Assembly (NCBI GenBank): GCA_016186945.1
Contig: JACPKR010000004.1
Coordinates: forward strand, 1 to 64,000
Length of the DNA: 64,000 nucleotides
Reading direction: 5' to 3'
From: Deltaproteobacteria bacterium
GTDB lineage: Bacteria; Bdellovibrionota_B; Oligoflexia; Oligoflexales; Bog-1112
Under the pieces are notes generated by a model that was given only the letters and a program-made list of their open reading frames with translations, made no database searches and was not told the origin of the DNA. This document shows, in pieces, positions 1 through 59,612 of the stretch; positions within the stretch are counted from its first letter, which is position 1, and every line of letters starts with the position of its first letter. Position numbers and translations under genes: made by a program.

Positions 1-180
1 GCGGGATGACAGACTAAGCCGCGGGATGACAGACCAAGCCGCGGGATGACAGACTAAGCCGCGGGATGACAGACTAAGCCGCGGGATGACAGACCAAGCC
101 GCGGGATGACAGACCAAGCCGCGGGATGACAGACTAAGCCGCGGGATGACAGACTAAGCCGCGGGATGACAGACCAAGCC
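1..180. repeat. 20-bp tandem repeat array, nine copies
   Basis: Nine head-to-tail copies of a 20-bp unit beginning GCGGGATGACAGAC, differing only by T or C at unit position 15. The array runs off the left edge, so its full length is unknown. The unit matches one arm of the dispersed CCGCGG palindrome seen at 182-238, 48470-48550 and 50390-50480 (AAGCCGCGGGATGACAG), so it looks like local amplification of that arm. There are no spacers, so it is not a CRISPR array. Twenty is not a multiple of three, so it does not encode a periodic peptide. Confidence 0.95.
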
Positions 181-181
181 A

Positions 182-238
182 CCGTCATCCCGCGGCTTGA
201 CCGCGGGATCCAACGGCAGCCTCCAAACCACCTCCTTG
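182..238 (+). repeat. Dispersed palindromic repeat, partial copy
   Basis: One CCGCGG-type palindrome arm (ATCCCGCGGCTTGACCGCGG) is followed by the sequence CTCCAAACCACCTCCTTGC that ends the larger composite elements at 48380-48590 and 56245-56372. It adjoins the tandem array. The rest of the stretch to 303 holds no gene that I can support. Confidence 0.85.
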
Positions 239-315
239 CTAGGATCACATCCTTGCTTGCCGCAAGCGCGTGAATCCAGTATCGTAAATGGGTTAAAACC
301 CTCAGGGAGGCTAGC

Positions 316-3765: not shown

Positions 3766-3816
3766 TAACCTGGGGGGCGACGGTTCCCTCGCCCCCCCAG
3801 ACCCCCCTCTCCCCTA
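3766..3816 (-). repeat. G-rich hairpin element behind the receiver-PilZ gene
   Basis: On the minus strand this reads GGGGAGAGGGGGGTCTGGGG followed by an arm CGA...TCG flanked by G6 and C6. It can fold as a stem of about 11 bp (CTGGGGGG-CGA with TCG-CCCCCCAG), and the upstream G runs could form a quadruplex. It starts a few bases after the stop codon at 3820 in sense orientation, matching six other copies behind genes in this window. It may be a terminator or a 3'-end stabiliser; there is no U tract. Confidence 0.8.
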
Positions 3817-3819
3817 CAG

Positions 3820-4584
3820 TTAGAGTTCCTCTCCTTTTGGGATGGTCTTCGTAGCATGAGATTGCTTGATATAATCCACAACATGGCTGTTACAACATGG
3901 ATCAAGATATTCGAAAAAAATACCGCATCCCACAAGAAGTTCGTTATGCCTGTCTTGTCGAATCCACGCTGTGGTCCCAAGTCCCTGCAACTTTCTAATC
4001 GAACCTTCCTTAAACGCAAAATCTATGCCGACTGTTTGATTCGCTCGTAATTGTTCGAACGAGGGGATCATCTCACGGGACACGAAAAAACCGCCCCTTC
4101 CTAACTGGAACCGCTTGTCGCCCTCAAATTTTTCAAAAGAAGCTTTAATCTCCACGACTGGTTTTTCATCAGGTTCTTCGTTCCAGCGTTGCGAGATTGG
4201 CGTAAGTAGTTTGCATCCTAAATTATGAAAGAACTCAAGATCGAGGGGCTTTTCGATAAAGGCGTCTGCGCCCGCGTCCAAAGCATCAAAAATTGTAATA
4301 TCCGCAAAACCGCTCATAAATATAAAGGGAGGCTGCACACCAGAAATCTTCCTGAGTTCTACGAGAAACCTTCCGCCATCCCACTCCGGCATACGAACGT
4401 CAGAGACAATGAGGTCGACGTTTCTAAATTTCATGAAGCTTTCCAAGCCCTCTTTGCCGTTAGAGGCCGCGACTGTCCGACAACCCCACATCTCACACTC
4501 GAAGGATACCGCATCTCGAAAGGTCTCGTTATCATCGGCGATGATGATAAGAACCTTTTTGTCTTTGCAAATATCTTTTTTCAT
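3820..4584 (-). CDS. Response regulator with C-terminal PilZ-like domain
   Basis: Output protein of a two-component pair. Residues 8-120 are a receiver domain with the acidic pair near D17-D18, the predicted phospho-acceptor D62 in IVSDVRMPEWDG and the conserved Lys in FIEKPL (K112). Residues about 150-235 look PilZ-like (KRFQLGRGGFFVSRE, then GIDFAFKEGS and LLVGCGIFFEYLD), but the classic RxxxR motif is not clear, so cyclic-di-GMP binding is uncertain. There is no DNA-binding domain. It lies 38 bp behind the kinase gene and is surely its partner. Confidence 0.85.
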   Translation of the reverse strand: MKKDICKDKKVLIIIADDNETFRDAVSFECEMWGCRTVAASNGKEGLESFMKFRNVDLIVSDVRMPEWDGGRFLVELRKISGVQPPFIFMSGFADITIFDALDAGADAFIEKPLDLEFFHNLGCKLLTPISQRWNEEPDEKPVVEIKASFEKFEGDKRFQLGRGGFFVSREMIPSFEQLRANQTVGIDFAFKEGSIRKLQGLGTTAWIRQDRHNELLVGCGIFFEYLDPCCNSHVVDYIKQSHATKTIPKGEEL

Positions 4585-9911: not shown

Positions 9912-9962
9912 GCTTTTTTTTGGAGTGCGACGCATTCCTCGCCCCCCCAGACCCCCCTCTCC
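9912..9962 (-). repeat. G-rich hairpin element behind tadA
   Basis: On the minus strand it reads AGGGAGAGGGGGGTCTGGGG with a following CGAGGAATGCGTCG hairpin. It begins exactly at the tadA stop codon in sense orientation and matches the copies at 3766-3816, 34893-34977, 48380-48590 and 56269-56310. The rest of 9837-9911 shows only an AT-rich stretch that may carry the promoter of the lipoprotein gene. Confidence 0.8.
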
Positions 9963-10424
9963 CTATTTTGAGACACGTTTCTTATGAAAAAATGTGCTCA
10001 GCATATTTCCGCATTCTTGGGAGAGGACGCCCCCTACTACTTCTAATCGGTGGTTCAAACGTTTATCCTCATGCAATTTGTAGAGGCTGCCGAGGGCGCC
10101 GGCTTTTGGGTCATAAGCGCCGAAGTACACTGTGCGGATGCGAGCTTGGACGAGGGCACCAGCACACATGATGCAGGGTTCAAGGGTTACGTATATGTCG
10201 CAATCCGGTAGGCGCCAGTTTTTCAATTGTTTGCAGGCATCTTCCAGCGCGATGATTTCCGCATGGCGGGTGATACAACGCAGTGATTCACGAACGTTGA
10301 AGCCCGTTCCGATCACGCGATCGTTCTGAACGATCACGGCTCCTATGGGAACTTCGTCGATTTGCTCAGCCTGACGGGCCAGTGCGATCGCCTGTTCCAT
10401 GTATTGTTCCGGAGAACTGCTCAC
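9963..10424 (-). CDS. tadA: tRNA-specific adenosine deaminase
   Basis: Converts adenosine-34 to inosine in tRNA-Arg(ACG). The 153-residue length fits the family. Zinc-site motifs are complete: HAE at residues 54-56 (catalytic Glu56) and PCIMC at 83-87, within a CDA fold (VPIGAVIV, NWRLPDCDIYVTLEPC). The start is a GTG. The gene starts 3 bp behind the recombinase-like gene, so the two are probably cotranscribed. The stop codon touches the G-rich repeat. Confidence 0.95.
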   Translation of the reverse strand: MSSSPEQYMEQAIALARQAEQIDEVPIGAVIVQNDRVIGTGFNVRESLRCITRHAEIIALEDACKQLKNWRLPDCDIYVTLEPCIMCAGALVQARIRTVYFGAYDPKAGALGSLYKLHEDKRLNHRLEVVGGVLSQECGNMLSTFFHKKRVSK

Positions 10425-14372: not shown

Positions 14373-14432
14373 AAGGAATTTCTTGGAGGAACCAGCTGCG
14401 CAGTTTCCTCCAAACCACCTCCTTGCCCCATG
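14373..14432 (+). repeat. GGAGGAA hairpin repeat between ntrY and ntrX
   Basis: It holds the 3' half of the composite element: TTGGAGGAA and TTCCTCCAA form a 9-bp stem around CCAGCTGCGCAGT, followed by ACCACCTCCTTGCCCCA. It begins two bases after the ntrY stop, in sense orientation. Closely similar copies lie at 45838-45920 and 56310-56372. Confidence 0.85.
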
Positions 14433-14454
14433 CAGCTTTTTCTAAGGACCTAAG

Positions 14455-34703: not shown

Positions 34704-34780
34704 TGGTGGGCGATAGAGAACTCGAATCTCTGACCTCTACGATGTCAACGTAGCGCTCTAACCAACTGAGCTAATCGCCC
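34704..34780 (-). tRNA. tRNA-Val (anticodon GAC)
   Basis: On the minus strand: acceptor GGGCGAT/ATCGCCC, anticodon stem CTACG/CGTAG around TTGACAT, T-arm with GATTCGAGT, CCA encoded. It reads GUC and GUU. Convergent with fusA. Confidence 0.95.
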
Positions 34781-34796
34781 TTTGTGCCTTAAGCTG

Positions 34797-34977
34797 TTTG
34801 TGGCAAGGAGGTGGTTCGGAGGAAACTGGTTCCTCCAACGTAATTCAAGCAAAGTAAAACATTGGTTCGCTTTGTCAAGTATGGAACTAAAGTCCTGGGG
34901 GAGCGACCCTTCGCTTTGCTCAGGGCAGGCTTTTCCCTCGCCCCCCCAAACCCCCTCTCCCTTTTTGCCCCAAGTTG
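34797..34977 (-). repeat. Composite G-rich/GGAGGAA repeat behind ftsY
   Basis: Read on the minus strand, starting six bases after the ftsY stop: ACTTGGGGCA, then AAGGGAGAGGGGGTTTGGGG with a CGAGGG...GGGTCG hairpin, and 100 bases later GGAGGAACCAGTTTCCTCC followed by CCACCTCCTTGCC. This is the same order as in the 56245-56372 copy, with a longer central part. The stretch 34781-34982 has no gene. Confidence 0.8.
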
Positions 34978-34982
34978 ATGCT

Positions 34983-36125
34983 CTAGGAAAGCATGGAATC
35001 CACGAATTCCTTGGCGTTGAATTGCCTCAAATCGGCAGCCTTTTCCCCTACACCGATGTAGCGTATGGGCACTTGGAATTCATCCGAGAGGCCTATAATG
35101 ACCCCGCCCTTCGCTGTCCCGTCGAGTTTGGTCACGCAGATACCCGACAGGTTGACGACCTCCTTAAACGCTCGTACTTGGAGAAAGGCGTTCTGTCCTG
35201 TTGTCGCATCAATGACGAGGAAGGTTTCGTGGGGGGCGTTTGGAATTTCTCTACTGATGACGCGCTTGATTTTTCCGAGTTCGTCCATCAGGTATTGTTT
35301 GTTGTGGAGGCGACCGGCTGTGTCGATCAGAAGGATCTGGGTCCCCCGTGCTTTCGCTGCTTTGATCGCGTCGAAGGCAACAGCTGCGGGATCGCTCCCT
35401 TCCTGGTGGGCGATCACCTTCACTCCAAGTCTGTCTCCCCAGATTTTCAGTTGGTCGATAGCTGCTGCTCGATAGGTGTCGGCAGCGCATAGCATGACCG
35501 AATGGTTTTCGGCAAGGAAATGGGCGGCGAGTTTCCCGATGGTTGTTGTTTTCCCAACACCGTTAACTCCGACCACGAGAATGACGAGGGGTTCGTTTTC
35601 TGCTGCGGTTGCGGTGTTTGGTGTGATGCTGAGGATTTTCTCAGCTTCCTGCGAAAGGATATCTCGGATTTGTTCCCACGTCAGAACCGAGGATTCCTTC
35701 AGTGTTTTGTTCACGTGGGAGATAAGTTTTTCGGTTGTTCTAACGCCGATGTCTGAGCGGTAGAGGATTTCGTGAATGGAGTCGAGAGTGTCAGCATCGA
35801 GGTTTGCTTTTGAGTTGAGCAGTGTTTCAAAATGGGAGCGTAGGGAGTCTCTTGTTTTGCTGAGTCCGTTTCTCAGGCGTTGAAGCCAGGCTTGGGAGTT
35901 GAGATGTCGTATCTCCTCAATATCCTGGGGCAAGCTAGCTCGCTCTTCTGCTTCTGTTGCAAGTTCATCACGTTTCTCACCTGGCTGTTCTGTCTTTTTG
36001 CGGGAAGATAAAACATAATAAGAAAGCAGGAGGAGCACAATCACTGAGACGATCAGGGCAAGTAGGCCCCAGAAAAGTTCCGGCTTTGCTTTCAAGGCGT
36101 CTATAAGGTTTAAATAATTAGGCAT
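34983..36125 (-). CDS. ftsY: Signal recognition particle receptor FtsY
   Basis: SRP receptor GTPase for cotranslational membrane targeting; 380 residues. Residues 15-40 are a transmembrane helix (WGLLALIVSVIVLLLLSYYV), so this FtsY is membrane-anchored directly, then a short charged A domain. The N domain follows, then the G domain with GVNGVGKTTTIGKLA (P-loop), DTAGRLHNKQYLMDEL, TKLDGTAKGGV and the C-terminal GVGEKAADLRQFNAKEF. The stop codon adjoins the G-rich repeat. Divergent from the 36204 gene. Confidence 0.96.
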   Translation of the reverse strand: MPNYLNLIDALKAKPELFWGLLALIVSVIVLLLLSYYVLSSRKKTEQPGEKRDELATEAEERASLPQDIEEIRHLNSQAWLQRLRNGLSKTRDSLRSHFETLLNSKANLDADTLDSIHEILYRSDIGVRTTEKLISHVNKTLKESSVLTWEQIRDILSQEAEKILSITPNTATAAENEPLVILVVGVNGVGKTTTIGKLAAHFLAENHSVMLCAADTYRAAAIDQLKIWGDRLGVKVIAHQEGSDPAAVAFDAIKAAKARGTQILLIDTAGRLHNKQYLMDELGKIKRVISREIPNAPHETFLVIDATTGQNAFLQVRAFKEVVNLSGICVTKLDGTAKGGVIIGLSDEFQVPIRYIGVGEKAADLRQFNAKEFVDSMLS

Positions 36126-39281: not shown

Positions 39282-39375
39282 GTTGGAGACGTACCTTGGT
39301 TTTTAGATTGACTTAAACAGGATGCTTAGGGCATCAATGACAAACTGACGAACAGTTTCCGAGAACCTACATATA

Positions 39376-39542
39376 TATAGTATTTGGGAAAAAGAATTTG
39401 TGAAGAGGGCCTTTTTTGGAAAAAAGTTCCCCTCCACACCTCCCCCCAAAAAACTTTAGATATTGAAGTTTTTGAAAAGGGGCTTGGGGATAGAACTTTT
39501 TTCAAAAAGTTTTTCCCCAAATTGATTATCTTGAATACTATA
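39376..39542. repeat. AT-rich inverted-repeat element, full copy
   Basis: 167 bp bounded by TATAGTATT and AATACTATA, a perfect 9-bp terminal inverted repeat. It contains GGGAAAAAGAATTTGTG, a run of GG/CC-flanked poly-A and poly-T segments able to form long hairpins, and ends TTGATTATCTTG before the right terminus. Other copies are at 41365-41448 (deleted centre), 53665-53830 (inverted) and 59516-59612 (truncated). It looks like a MITE; no clear target-site duplication was seen. Confidence 0.85.
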
Positions 39543-45837: not shown

Positions 45838-45920
45838 AAGGATTTCTTGGAGGAACCAGCTGCGCAGTTTCCTCCAAACCACCTCCTTGCAACAAGCGGG
45901 ACCACCTCCTTGCCACAAGG
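45838..45920 (+). repeat. GGAGGAA hairpin repeat ahead of S41 protease gene
   Basis: TTTCTTGGAGGAACCAGCTG, GCGCAGTTTCCTCCAAACC and a doubled ACCACCTCCTTGC end. Reading the plus strand in the protease frame gives FLEEPAAQFPPNHLLA, nearly the peptide also read at FlgA (FLDEPAAQFPPNHLLA). Unlike most copies it is not behind a stop codon. Confidence 0.85.
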
Positions 45921-45966: not shown

Positions 45967-48378
45967 TTGTTGAAGAGAATTCCCCAAATCATTCCCCTCG
46001 CTATCCTGTTTATGGGCTTTCTGTATGGACTCGTGCCATTATTCGAAATTCTGTTTGGGAAAAAAATCGAACAGCCAAACTCTGGCTATAGGGAACAGGA
46101 CAGAAGTCGGGATGACTCTCTATTTGGGGAGCTTCTTCTGTCTATTTTGAAAACGTACTACGTAGATGCTGCGAACATTCACTACGCAAGCTTACTGGTG
46201 CAGACTCTTATGAACCTTAATCAGAGTGGTGCTTACGGCTTTTCGGTTAGGGAGACGGGCAACTCTTTGATGATCGAGTGGGGAGAACGTGCGTTAGCAA
46301 TGCCCAAGCCATCGGACGATGACGATTTGGAATTTACGCAACAGATAGTGAAATTGATTGAGTTTCTAGAAAGCGAGAAGGAGGCGGAAGGAAAGAGCGG
46401 AAGCAATGTCATGTTTGATGTGTTCAGTGCGCTTACAGATTCATTTGACCCGCATACTAAGTTGATGTCGAAGGAGGAGTATAGGGAACTGAAGGAAGGG
46501 ACAGAGGGGAGTTTCGGTGGCTTAGGGATTCTTGTCGGCATACGGGACAAAATGCTAACCGTGATGGAATCTCTTCCCCAGAGTCCTGCTGAGCGTGCAG
46601 GGATTAGGGAGCATGACAGAATATTGTCTATTGATGGAATGCCGACGTTTGGATTGGGGTTACGCGATCTCATCAAGGTTATCAGGGGTGACCCTGGGTC
46701 GGAGATGGCCTTGCTTCTTCTCCGAGATAACTCCCTTGCTCCTCAGCGGGTCTTTGTTAAAAGGGAGCTTGTGGAGATGGATCCTGTCTCATCTCTAAGC
46801 CTTGAGTCGCCTGAAAAACAAAATGTCATCATGATGAAGATCGAATCGTTCTCAGCGAAGACCTACTTAGAATTTCTCAATGAACTGAATTTAGCGATGA
46901 TGAAAACAGAGGAAGTGGACGGACTGATCATCGACTTACGCTCCAATCCTGGAGGCTTACTAGACCAAGCCGTGCGTATCGCTGACCTGTTCATCAGCAA
47001 GGGAACGATCGTGATGACCGAGGGGCAGACCGTTGAATCAGAGGTGGCGACGAAAGATGTCGTGCCTCTCTCGGTACCCATCGTTTTACTTGTCGACGAA
47101 AACACAGCCTCTGCAAGTGAAATACTGGCAGGAGCATTGCAGGATCATGGAAAAGCGCTGGTCATAGGTCAGCCAAGTTTTGGAAAAGGGACAGTACAGA
47201 CGGTGTTTGAACTTCCCAACGACCTTGCATTGAAACTTACCGTCGCTCGTTATTTCACGCCTAAGGCGCGCAAGATTCAGGATGTAGGCATCGTTCCTGA
47301 CATATGGCTGCAGCCTGTCAGAAAAAATAGTGTCAACCTCAACCTCTTCGGAGATTTGCGCTATCGGAGAGAGAAGTTCCTCAGCCATCTTCGATACAAG
47401 AGCGGCGCCAATCCCTCCGACTTTGACCAGGGTGATGCCACCGAAACGCCCTCGATTGCAAAAAGCTACTATTTAGACGATGGAGAAAGCCCACAGACTA
47501 GAGAACATGAAGTCGAACTCGCCCTTCATGTTATTGACAGCCTTAACACCAGAGCGCCCTCGAGTCCAAGGCGCTCCTTGCTTTCAGGGATACGGAAAGT
47601 TCTAAGCAAATGGAACACAGAAGCGGATTCCTTTCTAAAGGAACATTTTGCCATTCATTGGTTGAAGGAACCTCGCAGCCCGAGCATTAAACTTCGCATC
47701 GCGAATCTTTCGCTCGATCGAGCTAGCGTCTTCCCAGGAGAAGATGTCCAATTGTACTACGAAGTGGTCAACGAGGGATCGCGCGATGCTGAACAAACGT
47801 CTCTATTTGTGCGCTCTTTCGACGAAGATACCGTCGAGGTACTCCTTGGAACGATTAGGAAAGGCGAGACGAATCGAGGCGTAGTGAAGGTTTCCATACC
47901 CTCGACTTGGGAAAAGCCTCTTGTGGATTATGAGACAGGTTTGGCTGTGGGAGCAGCGTACCTGCAAGGGTCGCTGAGGCCTATTCAAGTGGGGGTAAAG
48001 CACAAGGACCCTGCGATCCTCCTGGCCCAGAGCCAATTGATTGAGGAGAAGGGGGGAAGTCTCTCTGGTGTTCTGGAAGTTGCTGAGGCAGCAAAGCTCT
48101 TGATCACGGTCAGCAACTCAAGCGGGTTCCCGGTTGAGATCGAAGCTGTGGATCTGGTTAATCTGTCAGGGCGACAGATCATTGTAGGAGCAATCGATCA
48201 GCTTCGTCTGGGGCGTATTCCTCCTCACAGTAACAAGTTAGTGACAGTGGAAATAGCTGCCTCCGCTCAACTTGAATCCGACGAGTTAAACCTCGGACTG
48301 TCCATAGAGAGCAGGGACTTGAAAGTGCCCTTTTTCAGAACCTTCGACATAAAGGCAGTCCCCGGTCGAAAAAGGTAA
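45967..48378 (+). CDS. S41 (C-terminal-processing) protease with PDZ and extra C-terminal domains
   Basis: Serine protease of the Ctp family. An N-terminal TM (residues 8-30) is followed by an S41 N-terminal part, a PDZ domain (FGGLGILVGIRDKMLTVMES, AERAGIREHDRILSIDGMP) and the catalytic core with the Ser-Lys dyad: NTASASEILAGALQDHGKA (Ser) and GQPSFGKGTVQTVFELP (Lys). The C-terminal third (IANLSLDRASVFPGEDVQLY) looks like CARDB/immunoglobulin-type beta domains, as in MXAN_5808-like proteases. I prefer TTG 45967 behind GGGAG; ATG 45820 would start in a repeat-encoded peptide. Confidence 0.88.
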   Translation: MLKRIPQIIPLAILFMGFLYGLVPLFEILFGKKIEQPNSGYREQDRSRDDSLFGELLLSILKTYYVDAANIHYASLLVQTLMNLNQSGAYGFSVRETGNSLMIEWGERALAMPKPSDDDDLEFTQQIVKLIEFLESEKEAEGKSGSNVMFDVFSALTDSFDPHTKLMSKEEYRELKEGTEGSFGGLGILVGIRDKMLTVMESLPQSPAERAGIREHDRILSIDGMPTFGLGLRDLIKVIRGDPGSEMALLLLRDNSLAPQRVFVKRELVEMDPVSSLSLESPEKQNVIMMKIESFSAKTYLEFLNELNLAMMKTEEVDGLIIDLRSNPGGLLDQAVRIADLFISKGTIVMTEGQTVESEVATKDVVPLSVPIVLLVDENTASASEILAGALQDHGKALVIGQPSFGKGTVQTVFELPNDLALKLTVARYFTPKARKIQDVGIVPDIWLQPVRKNSVNLNLFGDLRYRREKFLSHLRYKSGANPSDFDQGDATETPSIAKSYYLDDGESPQTREHEVELALHVIDSLNTRAPSSPRRSLLSGIRKVLSKWNTEADSFLKEHFAIHWLKEPRSPSIKLRIANLSLDRASVFPGEDVQLYYEVVNEGSRDAEQTSLFVRSFDEDTVEVLLGTIRKGETNRGVVKVSIPSTWEKPLVDYETGLAVGAAYLQGSLRPIQVGVKHKDPAILLAQSQLIEEKGGSLSGVLEVAEAAKLLITVSNSSGFPVEIEAVDLVNLSGRQIIVGAIDQLRLGRIPPHSNKLVTVEIAASAQLESDELNLGLSIESRDLKVPFFRTFDIKAVPGRKR

Positions 48379-48379
48379 T

Positions 48380-48590
48380 GCGTAAGCCACTTGGGGCAAG
48401 GAGGAGGGTTGGGGGGCGAGTGAAGCGTCGCCTCACCCAAGGAATTCAGGGAGGAGCCTCCACTGTCATCCCGCGGCTTGACTGCGGGACCCAAACGGCC
48501 GCCTCCCCCGAAAAAGTTGGATCCCGCGGTCAAGCCGCGGGATGACAGTAGTTTCCTCCCAACCACCTCCTTGCCCCAGTGGCTGACGCA
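48380..48590 (+). repeat. Composite palindromic element with terminal inverted repeats
   Basis: Begins at the S41 stop codon (GCGTAAGCCACTTGGGGCAA) and ends GTGGCTGACGC near 48589; the ends are inverted copies of each other over about 24 bp. Inside: G-rich hairpin (GGGGGGCGAGTGAAGCG, then TCGCCTC), GGGAGGAGCCTCC, and two inverted CCGCGG-type palindrome arms around ACGGCCGCCTCCCCCGAAAA, then CCACCTCCTTGCC. Nearly the same structure is found behind dut, opposite strand. Sense orientation to the upstream gene. Confidence 0.88.
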
Positions 48591-48639
48591 TTGCGTCAAG
48601 TTGATTTTCTTCTGTCCGATGACAGGAGAGGAGGAGACG

Positions 48640-50346
48640 ATGCCCAAGGATGGGAAAATTGCCGTTATTGTTGGAACCCTTGATATTCCCAGAATCTTGC
48701 TTACCCTTCAGCCACTTGCGAGCCGTTTTTCCCTGACTCTCTTTGTTTTGGAAGGTGCAAAAATACCCGACAGTATCAGCAAGTTTTGCGAGGTTAGGAT
48801 TTACCAGCATGTGGAAGACATGCCAGGTTTTATGCGAGGCTTGGAGAAAGAGGCTGCCCATTATGACTTATTGCTGGGCTTGGAAGGAGCGCGTTTAAGC
48901 ACTTATCAGGCTTTGCAACTCAGCAAGCGGTTTGCTAAGCCACTGGTCATATTTTCGAGTGAGACTAAACCTCTGAAGGACGAACAGTTTAAGAATGTCC
49001 AATCTTTGCAGAAAGACCTCTTCAAAAACACAGATCTTTTTCTCGTTCCTTGTCAAAAATCTAAGAACCACCTTCTCTTTCAAGGCGTTTCAGCGGATAG
49101 AATCGCCAATGTTCCCCTCCTGGTCGATAGGGAAAGGTTTAGTCCCCAGTCAGGTTCCAAGGGGAAGTTTCGACGCTATATCGGTGTGGGGGAAGATGAT
49201 TTTGTGGTTCTCTTTTACGACGACCTAGAAGCTAACCCGGCACCTGAGGCTTTGCTCAGAAGCCTGGTTCTGATGCGACAAAAGAACGCAGACCTTGCTG
49301 CCCGTATCAAAGTGATTTTTGCAGGTTGTGGGGCGGACGAAAAAACCCTCAAGTATATGGCTTACGACTGGGGGGTGGGCGATGCAGTGTATTTCATTCA
49401 TCAGGAGATTGATGGGTTTTGCGAGGATGTCTTTCTGGCGAGTGACGCGCTGCTGTGTGCCCCAGGCCATGATAAAGATCGACTACCTCGGCTTCCTTTT
49501 GAAGTTTTGGAAGCTATGGCATGTGGGGTTATTCCTGTCGTCGTCCCTTCATCTTCAGTCAAGGACTTGGTGGGCGACTACGGAATGCTTGCCGATGATT
49601 TGTCCCCGACTTCTCTTGCTTTTGTATTATTTCAACTTGCTGGCGATCGCTCCTTTCTCCTGGAGAAACGCGAGGTCTTGAGACGAGCGAGCTTCCTGGG
49701 TGAAGGAGGTGAATGGGTTGATCGCATCGGCAAACTTCTGTCTGTACTAAAAAGAAGGGCGGGTGAGAATGACGAGAATGTTCGCAACTTCGTGGTGCAG
49801 ATCCAAGGAGACCAGGTCAGTTCAATTCTCAAGCAGGCAGGCGTGGATGAGTTCATGAAGGCCCATGAGCTGACAGATAAGCAGAGAGGTCTTCTCCTGA
49901 GAACGAAAGCAGACATCTTGCACCAGAACGGTGAGCTGGAAGAAGCTATAGGTGCCTTTGAGTCAGCCATAATATGTGATGAAAAAAATGTAGATGCCTA
50001 TGTCGGGCTAGGAACAATTGCATTGAGCAGTTTTGCCCAGGAGGAAGCTGTCACCTTCTTCCGTAAGGCTATCTCTTTTGACCCCGGAAATGCGAAGGCC
50101 GCTCTTGGTCTTGGATTGGTGTTCTTTCGTGCTGGCCTCGCCTCTGACTCGCTCTATTGGCTTGAACGTAGCCTGCTGAGTGGAGTGGCCAACTCCACGC
50201 TTCCTCTCAACACGATTTCACGAATATGCCGGGAGGCGAAAGATATCGAGTGGGCCTTAGGAGCACTGGAGAAGATTATCGAGAATGTTGGGGAACAGGA
50301 CTTGCTGATGCATAGCCTTCGAGATCTTCGTTTACGAAACGGTTGA
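48640..50346 (+). CDS. Glycosyltransferase (GT-B, group 1-like) with C-terminal TPR
   Basis: 568 residues. The N-terminal domain is a Rossmann-like fold (KIAVIVGTLDIPRILLTLQP), the middle resembles the GT4 family C-terminal domain with PRLPFEVLEAMACGVIPVVV (Glu motif EAMACG), then TPR units (GELEEAIGAFESAIICDEKN, AQEEAVTFFRKAISFDPGNA). Donor and acceptor unknown. I chose ATG 48640 behind GAGGAGG; ATG 48619 also possible. A longer reading from 48478 is repeat-derived. Overlaps the repeat-encoded tail of dut by 71 bp. Confidence 0.8.
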   Translation: MPKDGKIAVIVGTLDIPRILLTLQPLASRFSLTLFVLEGAKIPDSISKFCEVRIYQHVEDMPGFMRGLEKEAAHYDLLLGLEGARLSTYQALQLSKRFAKPLVIFSSETKPLKDEQFKNVQSLQKDLFKNTDLFLVPCQKSKNHLLFQGVSADRIANVPLLVDRERFSPQSGSKGKFRRYIGVGEDDFVVLFYDDLEANPAPEALLRSLVLMRQKNADLAARIKVIFAGCGADEKTLKYMAYDWGVGDAVYFIHQEIDGFCEDVFLASDALLCAPGHDKDRLPRLPFEVLEAMACGVIPVVVPSSSVKDLVGDYGMLADDLSPTSLAFVLFQLAGDRSFLLEKREVLRRASFLGEGGEWVDRIGKLLSVLKRRAGENDENVRNFVVQIQGDQVSSILKQAGVDEFMKAHELTDKQRGLLLRTKADILHQNGELEEAIGAFESAIICDEKNVDAYVGLGTIALSSFAQEEAVTFFRKAISFDPGNAKAALGLGLVFFRAGLASDSLYWLERSLLSGVANSTLPLNTISRICREAKDIEWALGALEKIIENVGEQDLLMHSLRDLRLRNG

Positions 50347-50977
50347 GGCAAGGAGGCGGTTTGGAGGAAACTGCGCAGCTGGTTCCTCCACTGTCATCCC
50401 GCGGCTTGACCGCGGGATCCAACTTTTTCGGGGGAGGCGGCCGTTGGATCCCGCGGTCAAGCCGCGGGATGACAGTGGAGGCTCCTCCCTGAATTCCGGG
50501 GGAGGCGACGCTTCCCTCGCCCTCCCCAAAAACCTCCCTCTCCCTTTTCGCCCTGCCGGTGGAACCAAATCCACCCATTCTCTTACCCAGACAGACCAAG
50601 TGTGGCAAGCGATAGCTCAACCCCAAGACGAGTTGGGCGATTCTGTCACCTGCCTTAACTTCGTAGGGTTTCGTGGAGACGTTCCACAATAAGACTTCAA
50701 ATTCATCAGGAAAGTCGGCGTCCACTGTTCCTACTGCATTGGCAAGAGTGATGCCGTGTTTGAACGCCAAGCCGGAACGAGCGCGGACTTGAATTTCGGG
50801 AACGGCTCCTGCGGGAACGTTTTCCCAGTCCACGCGGTCAATCCACACACCTGTGGGAACTTTCACAACCGCTCCCGGGGGAATGCTTGTCGTCACTCTT
50901 GCCTTGAGGTCTGCACCGGCACTGAGTTCGGTCTGATAAGCCGGTTCGCAATCAGCTTGCCATCTAAGAATGATCAT
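50276..50977 (-). CDS. dut: dUTP diphosphatase with repeat-encoded C-terminal tail
   Basis: Hydrolyses dUTP to dUMP and PPi. Residues 1-141 hold all five motifs: SAGADLKARVTTSIPPG, RARSGLAFKHGI, GTVDADFPDEFEVLLWN, AGDRIAQLV and GGFGSTG (motif 5, residues about 134-140). Family proteins end near here. The frame then runs about 92 more codons through the composite repeat at 50345-50548 (REREVFGEGEGSVAS, then VIPRLDRGIQRPPPPKKLDP) and stops inside the 3' end of the convergent glycosyltransferase gene. Whether the tail is translated and tolerated is unknown; a motif-5 tail usually closes over the active site. Confidence 0.9.
   Translation of the reverse strand: MIILRWQADCEPAYQTELSAGADLKARVTTSIPPGAVVKVPTGVWIDRVDWENVPAGAVPEIQVRARSGLAFKHGITLANAVGTVDADFPDEFEVLLWNVSTKPYEVKAGDRIAQLVLGLSYRLPHLVCLGKRMGGFGSTGRAKREREVFGEGEGSVASPGIQGGASTVIPRLDRGIQRPPPPKKLDPAVKPRDDSGGTSCAVSSKPPPCLNRFVNEDLEGYASASPVPQHSR
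50345..50548 (-). repeat. Composite palindromic element inside the dut reading frame
   Basis: On the minus strand: G-rich hairpin, GGAATTCAGGGAGGAGCCTC, then a CCGCGG-type palindrome and its inverted copy (about 33 bp each) around ACGGCCGCCTCCCCCGAAAA, and the GGAGGAACCAGCTGCGCAG hairpin with CCTCCTTGCC. Same order as the element behind the S41 gene. It lies in sense to dut and supplies its last codons. Confidence 0.9.
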
Positions 50978-53664: not shown

Positions 53665-53830
53665 TATGTAGTATTCAGGATAATCAATTTGGGGAAAAAC
53701 TTTTTGAAAAAAGTTGTTTCCCCAAGCCCCTTTTTAAAAACTTCAATATTTAAAGTTTTTTGGGGGGAGGCGTGGAGGGGAACTTTTTTTCAAAAAAGGT
53801 CCTCTCCACAAGTTCTATTTCTCAAAGACT
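53665..53830. repeat. AT-rich inverted-repeat element, inverted copy
   Basis: Reverse complement version of the 39376-39542 element: starts GTAGTATTCAGGATAATCAA, has the same A/T-run hairpins and GGGGGGAGGCGTGGAGGGG core, and ends near CTCAAAGACTA with an eroded terminus. It fills most of the gap 53465-53848, with the rpsO leader at 53486-53664; no gene is seen there. Confidence 0.85.
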
Positions 53831-53848
53831 AATTAAAGGAAGGGCTTC

Positions 53849-56237: not shown

Positions 56238-56244
56238 TCGTGTA

Positions 56245-56372
56245 ATGCGTAAGCCACTTGGGGCAAATAGGGAGAGGGGGGTTTGGGGGGCGAGTGAAGC
56301 GTCGCCTCCCCCGGATTTCTTGGATGAACCAGCTGCGCAGTTTCCTCCAAACCACCTCCTTGCCCCAAGCAC
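56245..56372 (+). repeat. Composite G-rich/GGAGGAA repeat between flgG and flgA
   Basis: Cleanest form of the element: GCGTAAGCCACTTGGGGCAA, GGGAGAGGGGGGTTTGGGGG with hairpin CGAGTGAAGCGTCG, then TTTCTTGGATGAACCAGCTG/TTTCCTCCAAACCACCTCC and TTGCCCCA. No CCGCGG palindrome is inserted. It lies 7 bp behind the flgG stop and overlaps the flgA coding start. Confidence 0.9.
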
Positions 56373-59515: not shown

Positions 59516-59612
59516 TTTTGGGAAAAAGAATTTGTGGAGAGGACCTTTTTTGAAAAAAAGTTCCCCTCCACGCCTCCCCCCAAAAAACTTTAATTGATTA
59601 TCCTGGGAAAAG
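59516..59612. repeat. AT-rich inverted-repeat element, truncated copy
   Basis: Contains GGGAAAAAGAATTTGTGGAG, CCTTTTTTGAAAAAAAGTTC and CTCCACGCCTCCCCCCAAAA followed by TTGATTATCC, the order seen in the 39376 copy with the centre missing. It sits between flgJ and flgM, 10 bp ahead of flgM, so it may change flgM expression. Confidence 0.8.

Follow-up and report, generated by a model that had tools for sequence, protein, structure and literature searches.

A MITE-like mosaic repeat with an inverted pair of REP-like units, frequent behind gene 3' ends in a bacterium of the Oligoflexales

Introduction

REP and BIME sequences are short palindromes that occur in hundreds of copies, singly or as inverted pairs, near the 3' ends of genes, with termini that supply stop codons and with some copies lying inside ORFs (PMC3733652). 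For REPs, a position at most 20 bp from 3' ends, both in convergent and in same-direction gaps, and the supply of stop codons have already been published, including TAG stops from the termini of GTAG REPs, and REP dimers have also been recorded nested inside longer palindromes (PMC3733652). MITEs such as RUP, NEMIS/Correia, ERIC and Nezha are non-coding elements of high copy number with inverted termini and target duplications (PMC3733652). Insertion sequences of the IS66 family have ends with the sequence GTAAGCG and make duplications of 8 bp (PMC11946415), and Rickettsia palindromic elements (RPE) are read through in frame into proteins.

The repeat described here was found in a bacterium of the Oligoflexales and shares each of the REP and BIME features listed above. 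Its two palindromic units, B and D, taken alone fit the description of a REP (a palindrome of 20-40 bp, in high copy number and mainly extragenic), but they carry neither a GTAG nor a CGTC tag, and no RAYT gene over the cut-off was found in this genome or its relatives. With the MITEs it has in common a length of 144 bp, 25-bp inverted termini, target duplications, the absence of coding capacity and a high copy number, in line with the 70-300 bp, the terminal inverted repeats of 15-30 bp and the target-site duplications by which MITEs are recognised; however, its sequence is unlike that of the named MITEs, its interior is a REP-like pair and its parent transposase was not found. The termini, of 20-30 bp and starting with GTAA, and the 8-bp duplications are like those of IS66, whereas the terminus continues with TGCG instead of GCG, the duplications are of 8 or 9 bp and PF03050 is missing from the genome. 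As with RPE, there is in-frame read-through into a protein (dut), and one frame of the terminus is open to position 55 on one strand and stop-free on the other, but few copies lie inside genes here (17 of the 226 clusters scored). The sequence family of the repeat is new, but it belongs to a known kind. The initial annotation knew of no named element of this structure, which is correct for the exact sequence, while the architecture, MITE termini with REP units, has been described (PMC3733652).

Materials and methods

The window is the whole stretch of 64,000 nucleotides that was analysed (C55:1-64000), from a genome of 2.66 Mb in 76 contigs that is 91% complete. The first sample comprised 853 kb, including the window, and replication was done on an independent sample of 376 kb. 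Genes were called with a hexamer-scored ORF caller, of which the 3' ends are reliable and the starts approximate.

Results

The RpoB protein was at most 62% identical to that of MAGs labelled Myxococcales, Deltaproteobacteria or Bdellovibrio, indicating a little-known lineage. The repeat is far more abundant in this genome than expected by chance. In the 1.23 Mb sampled (46% of the genome) 277 matches were found, which corresponds to about 600 whole or partial copies genome-wide, and termini with at most three mismatches occurred 221 times in the genome in comparison to 0 for a reversed control. Searches with the exact terminus against genome_contigs and with the core of D against viral_contigs gave no match, and Rfam detected nothing but tRNAs in the window.

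The full-length form measures 144 bp, and 30 near-full copies across the genome align to one unit with the order GTAATGCGTAAGCCACTTGGGGCAA - B - D - TTGCCCCAAGTGGCTTACGCATTAC. The inverted termini (GTAATGCGTAAGCCACTTGGGGCAA) flank the palindromic units B and D, which have opposite orientations. B consists of G-runs and a CGA..TCG hairpin, and D of a GGAGGAA hairpin with a CCTCCTTGC tail; D is nearly palindromic, and the two units share an AAGGGAG/CAAGGAG start. The unit boundaries reappeared at consensus positions 1, 24, 72/73, 123 and 144 in the 853-kb sample, and D alone (CTTGGAGGAACCAGCTGCGCAGTTTCCTCCAAACCACCTCCTTGC) and B alone were each found in unrelated flanks. The 144-nt strand has a predicted fold of -95.4 kcal/mol (z -10), and the B strand alone a predicted hairpin fold of -21 kcal/mol. 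Because of the inverted termini, the opposite orientation of B and D, and target duplications of 8-9 bp, we classify the repeat as a MITE whose interior is formed by two REP-like units in inverted orientation to each other.

The composite repeat reported at 48380 is real and has related copies elsewhere in the window, and its modules, as the initial annotation gave them (G-runs, CGA..TCG hairpin, GGAGGAA hairpin and ends), were recovered in it and in its relatives. It occupies 48375-48594, so that 48380 lies 5 nt inside the element. On the plus strand, the left terminal inverted repeat GTAATGCGTAAGCCACTTGGGGCAA (48375..48399) is an exact match to the terminus, and the TAA of its GTAATG (48376-48378) serves as the stop of the S41 protease gene. 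It is followed by unit B (48400..48458, +; blastn match to the consensus of 144 bp), which in this copy starts with a D-like GGAGG, and, after an interrupting palindrome pair, by the end of unit D (CCTCCTTGCC) with a degenerate right terminal inverted repeat (48550..48594, +; consensus and terminus matches). The interrupting CCGCGG pair (48462..48549, an inverted repeat with a REP match at 48518-48547) had been taken for an optional module; it is indeed present, but it belongs to a different repeat family and is a REP dimer of the TGTC/CGTC type, nested in the mosaic. The CCGCGG-pair repeat, TGTC-ATCCCGCGG-CTTGA-CCGCGGGAT-CCA, was found in 37 copies, with 10 inverted dimers, in 853 kb, and has what defines a CGTC REP, namely the CGTC/TGTC tag, a stem of 8-9 bp starting with AT, a loop of 4-5 nt, a CCA tail and inverted dimers (PMC3733652). 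A side observation is that a 20-bp unit, GCGGGATGACAGACYAAGCC, which resembles half a TGTC/CGTC REP, is repeated about nine times in tandem at window positions 1-200.

The second nested dimer (50392..50474, an inverted repeat) has its tags pointing outward and lies between unit D (50343..50390, -), which overlaps the end of a converging ORF, and unit B (50480..50553, -). All three fall in the dut ORF (50276-50977, -), which encodes 233 amino acids with a dUTPase match at 12-119; we observed that this ORF runs in frame through B, the REP dimer and D, which gives about 90 extra C-terminal residues. A nearly full copy, with terminus, B and D present and the right terminus lost, is located between flgG and the next gene, at 56242..56369 (+; 98% to consensus positions 1-129), and the flgG stop is 4 nt upstream. 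Separately, GTAATG at 56242-56247 offers an ATG in an open frame, and the ORF behind flgG seems to start inside the element; annotated starts like this one are doubtful.

Other copies in the window are partial. B alone follows 6 nt after the stop of a response-regulator gene (3820-4584, -) at 3772..3813 (-), and B alone at 9922..9968 (-) provides, with its AAATAGGG, the TAG stop of a tadA-like deaminase gene. D alone at 14378..14438 (+) lies 7 nt after an ntrY-like histidine kinase gene, and a partial copy with a terminus end and B at 34933..34975 (-) lies 7 nt after ftsY (34983-36125, -). We also located a partial D at 34790..34828 (-), about 10 nt from a tRNA gene (34707-34780), a unit D at 45840..45899 (+) in a 5' location upstream of the S41 protease gene, and a D-tail fragment (AAACCACCTCCTTGC) at 220..239 (+). 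The seven examples said to stand directly behind stop codons thus need some correction, as dut has no stop before the element, and the stops of the S41 protease and tadA genes lie inside the repeat.

As a general statement, the location behind stop codons was strongly confirmed and was replicated. In the sampled sequence an element was present within 20 nt of the 3' end in 160 of 1015 genes, in comparison to 28 with an element at that distance from the 5' end. In same-direction gaps, the upstream stop was no more than 20 nt away for 75% of the clusters and the next start for 14%; 78 copies were near the upstream stop, where uniform placement predicts 33.0 ± 4.1. The replication sample agreed, with 73% near the stop (KS p 3.6e-8). 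Of the 67 copies in same-direction gaps that offer 100 free nt or more, 37 were within 20 nt of the stop; the expectation was 8.6, or 15.4 with the final 60 nt ahead of the next start barred. TGTC REP dimers of the same genome were within 20 nt of the upstream stop in 6% of cases (n = 16) versus the 75% above, and another repeat family, searched with two queries, in 48% and 42% (same-direction gaps). Between divergent genes we found 61 of the 209 intergenic clusters. An excess between convergent genes is not claimed, with 35 versus 14.8 expected in the first sample and 9 versus 9.0 in the second.

As an observation in its own right, a second abundant repeat of 175 nt, with copies about 90% alike, occurs in the window at 39366-39540, 53669-53843 and 59517-59593; its family forms 123 clusters in 1.23 Mb, and in same-direction gaps 48% of its clusters are at most 20 nt from the upstream stop.

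The element can itself end a reading frame. Two frames of the termini contain TAA and one frame of B contains TAG, and it is exactly at these places that gene stops were found, those of the S41 protease and tadA genes included: on the sense strand, at consensus positions 2 (six genes), 9 (three genes) and 27 (three genes).

The element had been said to lie always in the sense of the gene, and this was refuted. Pooled counts outside the window were 49 sense to 39 antisense (p = 0.34), so that the orientation count proposed by the initial annotation, run on 46% of the genome, gave the random orientation that it had named as evidence against the claim. In same-direction gaps of the first sample the ratio was 44:27 with the window and 38:27 outside it (p 0.21), in the independent sample 11:12, and for copies containing B 27:22. 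An apparent sense bias of B-containing copies near stops in the first sample (25:9, p 0.009, window included) was reversed in the independent sample (1:6) and was rejected. The seven examples of the window were a chance run, or partly reflect the choice of which module to read, as D is nearly palindromic.

Beside the element, 8-bp flanks matched at 0.45 versus 0.274 ± 0.027 for shuffled partners and 9-bp flanks at 0.378 versus 0.263, and a recognisable duplication was kept in only about a third of the near-full copies. Derivatives of 77 bp, one with an 8-bp duplication with one mismatch, have lost nearly everything except the two termini, and this suggests that it is the termini that are moved. 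No autonomous partner with matching ends was detected in the sampled sequence or among listed termini, and the check for a REP-like or IS transposase with such ends, which the initial annotation had proposed, likewise returned none in the sampled sequence. The IS66 transposase domain PF03050 had no match in this genome (91% complete assembly). Joined flanks revealed no empty sites within the sample, and relatives are too divergent to align the gaps. A RAYT as the mover was rejected, as NF047646 gave nothing over the cut-off in eight genomes, and the Y1 transposases of this genome group with IS200/IS605, three of them near TnpB-like ORFs. In G005, a genome of the same family and another genus, several RAYT-like Y1 transposases were observed whose scores do not reach the NCBIfam cut-off (74 of 80 bits for the best; L170, L176 and others); those examined had no D unit alongside, and a search with a RAYT-like protein of G005 against viral contigs found none.

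The D hairpin was present, without B or the termini, in G005 and in G007, also of the same family and another genus. B was not found in relatives, and the single genome of the same genus (75% complete) had no match. Across the three genera 90.6% of the cells of the D stem were paired, with a constant loop and a covarying stem. Double-sided changes numbered 60 versus 21.6 ± 3.6 in shuffled alignments, with a covariation of 0.395 versus 0.155; anchoring the alignment on the loop gives structure some advantage, but slid versions were far worse. In G005 and G007 the D unit was within 25 nt of 12 3' ends versus one 5' end. In G007 (L188, L189, L190, L191, L192) we further noticed that D hairpins often face each other at 265-480 bp, with interiors that differ yet share short stretches.

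Discussion

We consider it fairly probable that the repeat is a MITE-like mosaic, with B and D between mobile termini, of which copies are kept behind genes as 3' stem-loops that block exonucleases. D, and probably B too, would be an older unit that was dispersed separately. The termini would be moved in trans, which we infer to be the work of a DDE-type transposase; with their GTAA ends and 8-9 bp duplications they resemble those of the IS66 family, and an IS66 parentage is suggested by these two features. Most copies appear to have been retained within about 20 nt of gene 3' ends, where, if transcribed, they would form very stable stem-loops. Such structures would most likely block 3'-to-5' exonucleases and define the mRNA 3' ends left by Rho. 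Orientation would be irrelevant, since both strands allow folding of the outer palindrome and of each unit. As judged from sequence, a 3'-UTR stem-loop is the most likely function. It is favoured by the position, by a chance frequency of terminator-like sites both in the window and at the 3' ends of genes in general (for U-tract terminators, in the 1.23 Mb sampled), by the presence of rho just outside the window (C55:66983-68218) and by an excess of hairpins, as 3' regions without the element, a set that may include other repeats, had hairpins with z<-2 in 24-34% versus 5-6% in coding controls. A 3'-UTR function, or insertion at transcript ends, had been proposed before; the position on which this was based holds and replicates, but the invariant orientation fails genome-wide. 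For the copies between divergent genes (61 of 209) a 3' role is impossible.

Neutral retention is a serious rival, although we regard it as rather unlikely on balance. Selfish repeats without any role could accumulate behind stops because insertions survive best there, promoters and coding sequence being intolerant and the element bringing its own stop codons, as it does at consensus positions 2, 9 and 27. The variable orientation agrees with this, and as other repeat families lean to 3' ends too (48% and 42%), part of the 3' bias may be simple tolerance of insertions. Tolerance accounts poorly for the 37 of 67 copies found near the stop, versus 8.6 or 15.4 expected, in gaps with at least 100 free nt, or for the TGTC REP dimers of the same genome, which do not cluster at stops. 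A lesser rival, and an improbable one, is targeted insertion, in which the transposase would favour a structure or sequence found at the ends of transcripts. Six of the seven youngest copies in same-direction gaps (full copies with at least 97% identity) do stand at stops already, but that number is small, the flanks inspected by eye show no shared target motif, and of 14 young copies 4 are located between divergent genes.

In favour of intrinsic transcription termination are the strong hairpins, rich in G+C, that are predicted behind stops. The consensus has no U tract after its hairpins, however, and with the element excised none of the 135 ends that bear it had a terminator-like site, such sites being at chance level elsewhere; moreover, one copy stands between flgG and the next gene, which are closely spaced in relatives, and a terminator role is thus very improbable. 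Least probable is that the element acts as a G-quadruplex through the G-runs of unit B: B does contain GGGAGAGGGGGGTTTGGGGGG, but its strand folds as a hairpin (-21 kcal/mol), and copies with D only, without such G-runs, show the same position. Going beyond the stem-loop reading that we prefer, the lineage might have largely given up U-tract terminators, with mobile stem-loops, delivered to transcript ends, as its standard mRNA 3' ends; we think this improbable.

In this repeat two classes of small bacterial repeat, transposon-like ends and an inverted pair of REP-like units, meet in one element. New features are the presence of MITE termini around two unlike REP-like units, the cross-genus family of D and the setting in a genome without evident U-tract terminators. 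About one in six of the sampled genes has the element at its 3' end. If the element fixes mRNA 3' ends in this genome, with its few U-tract terminators, mobile repeats would be a main source of 3'-UTR structure.
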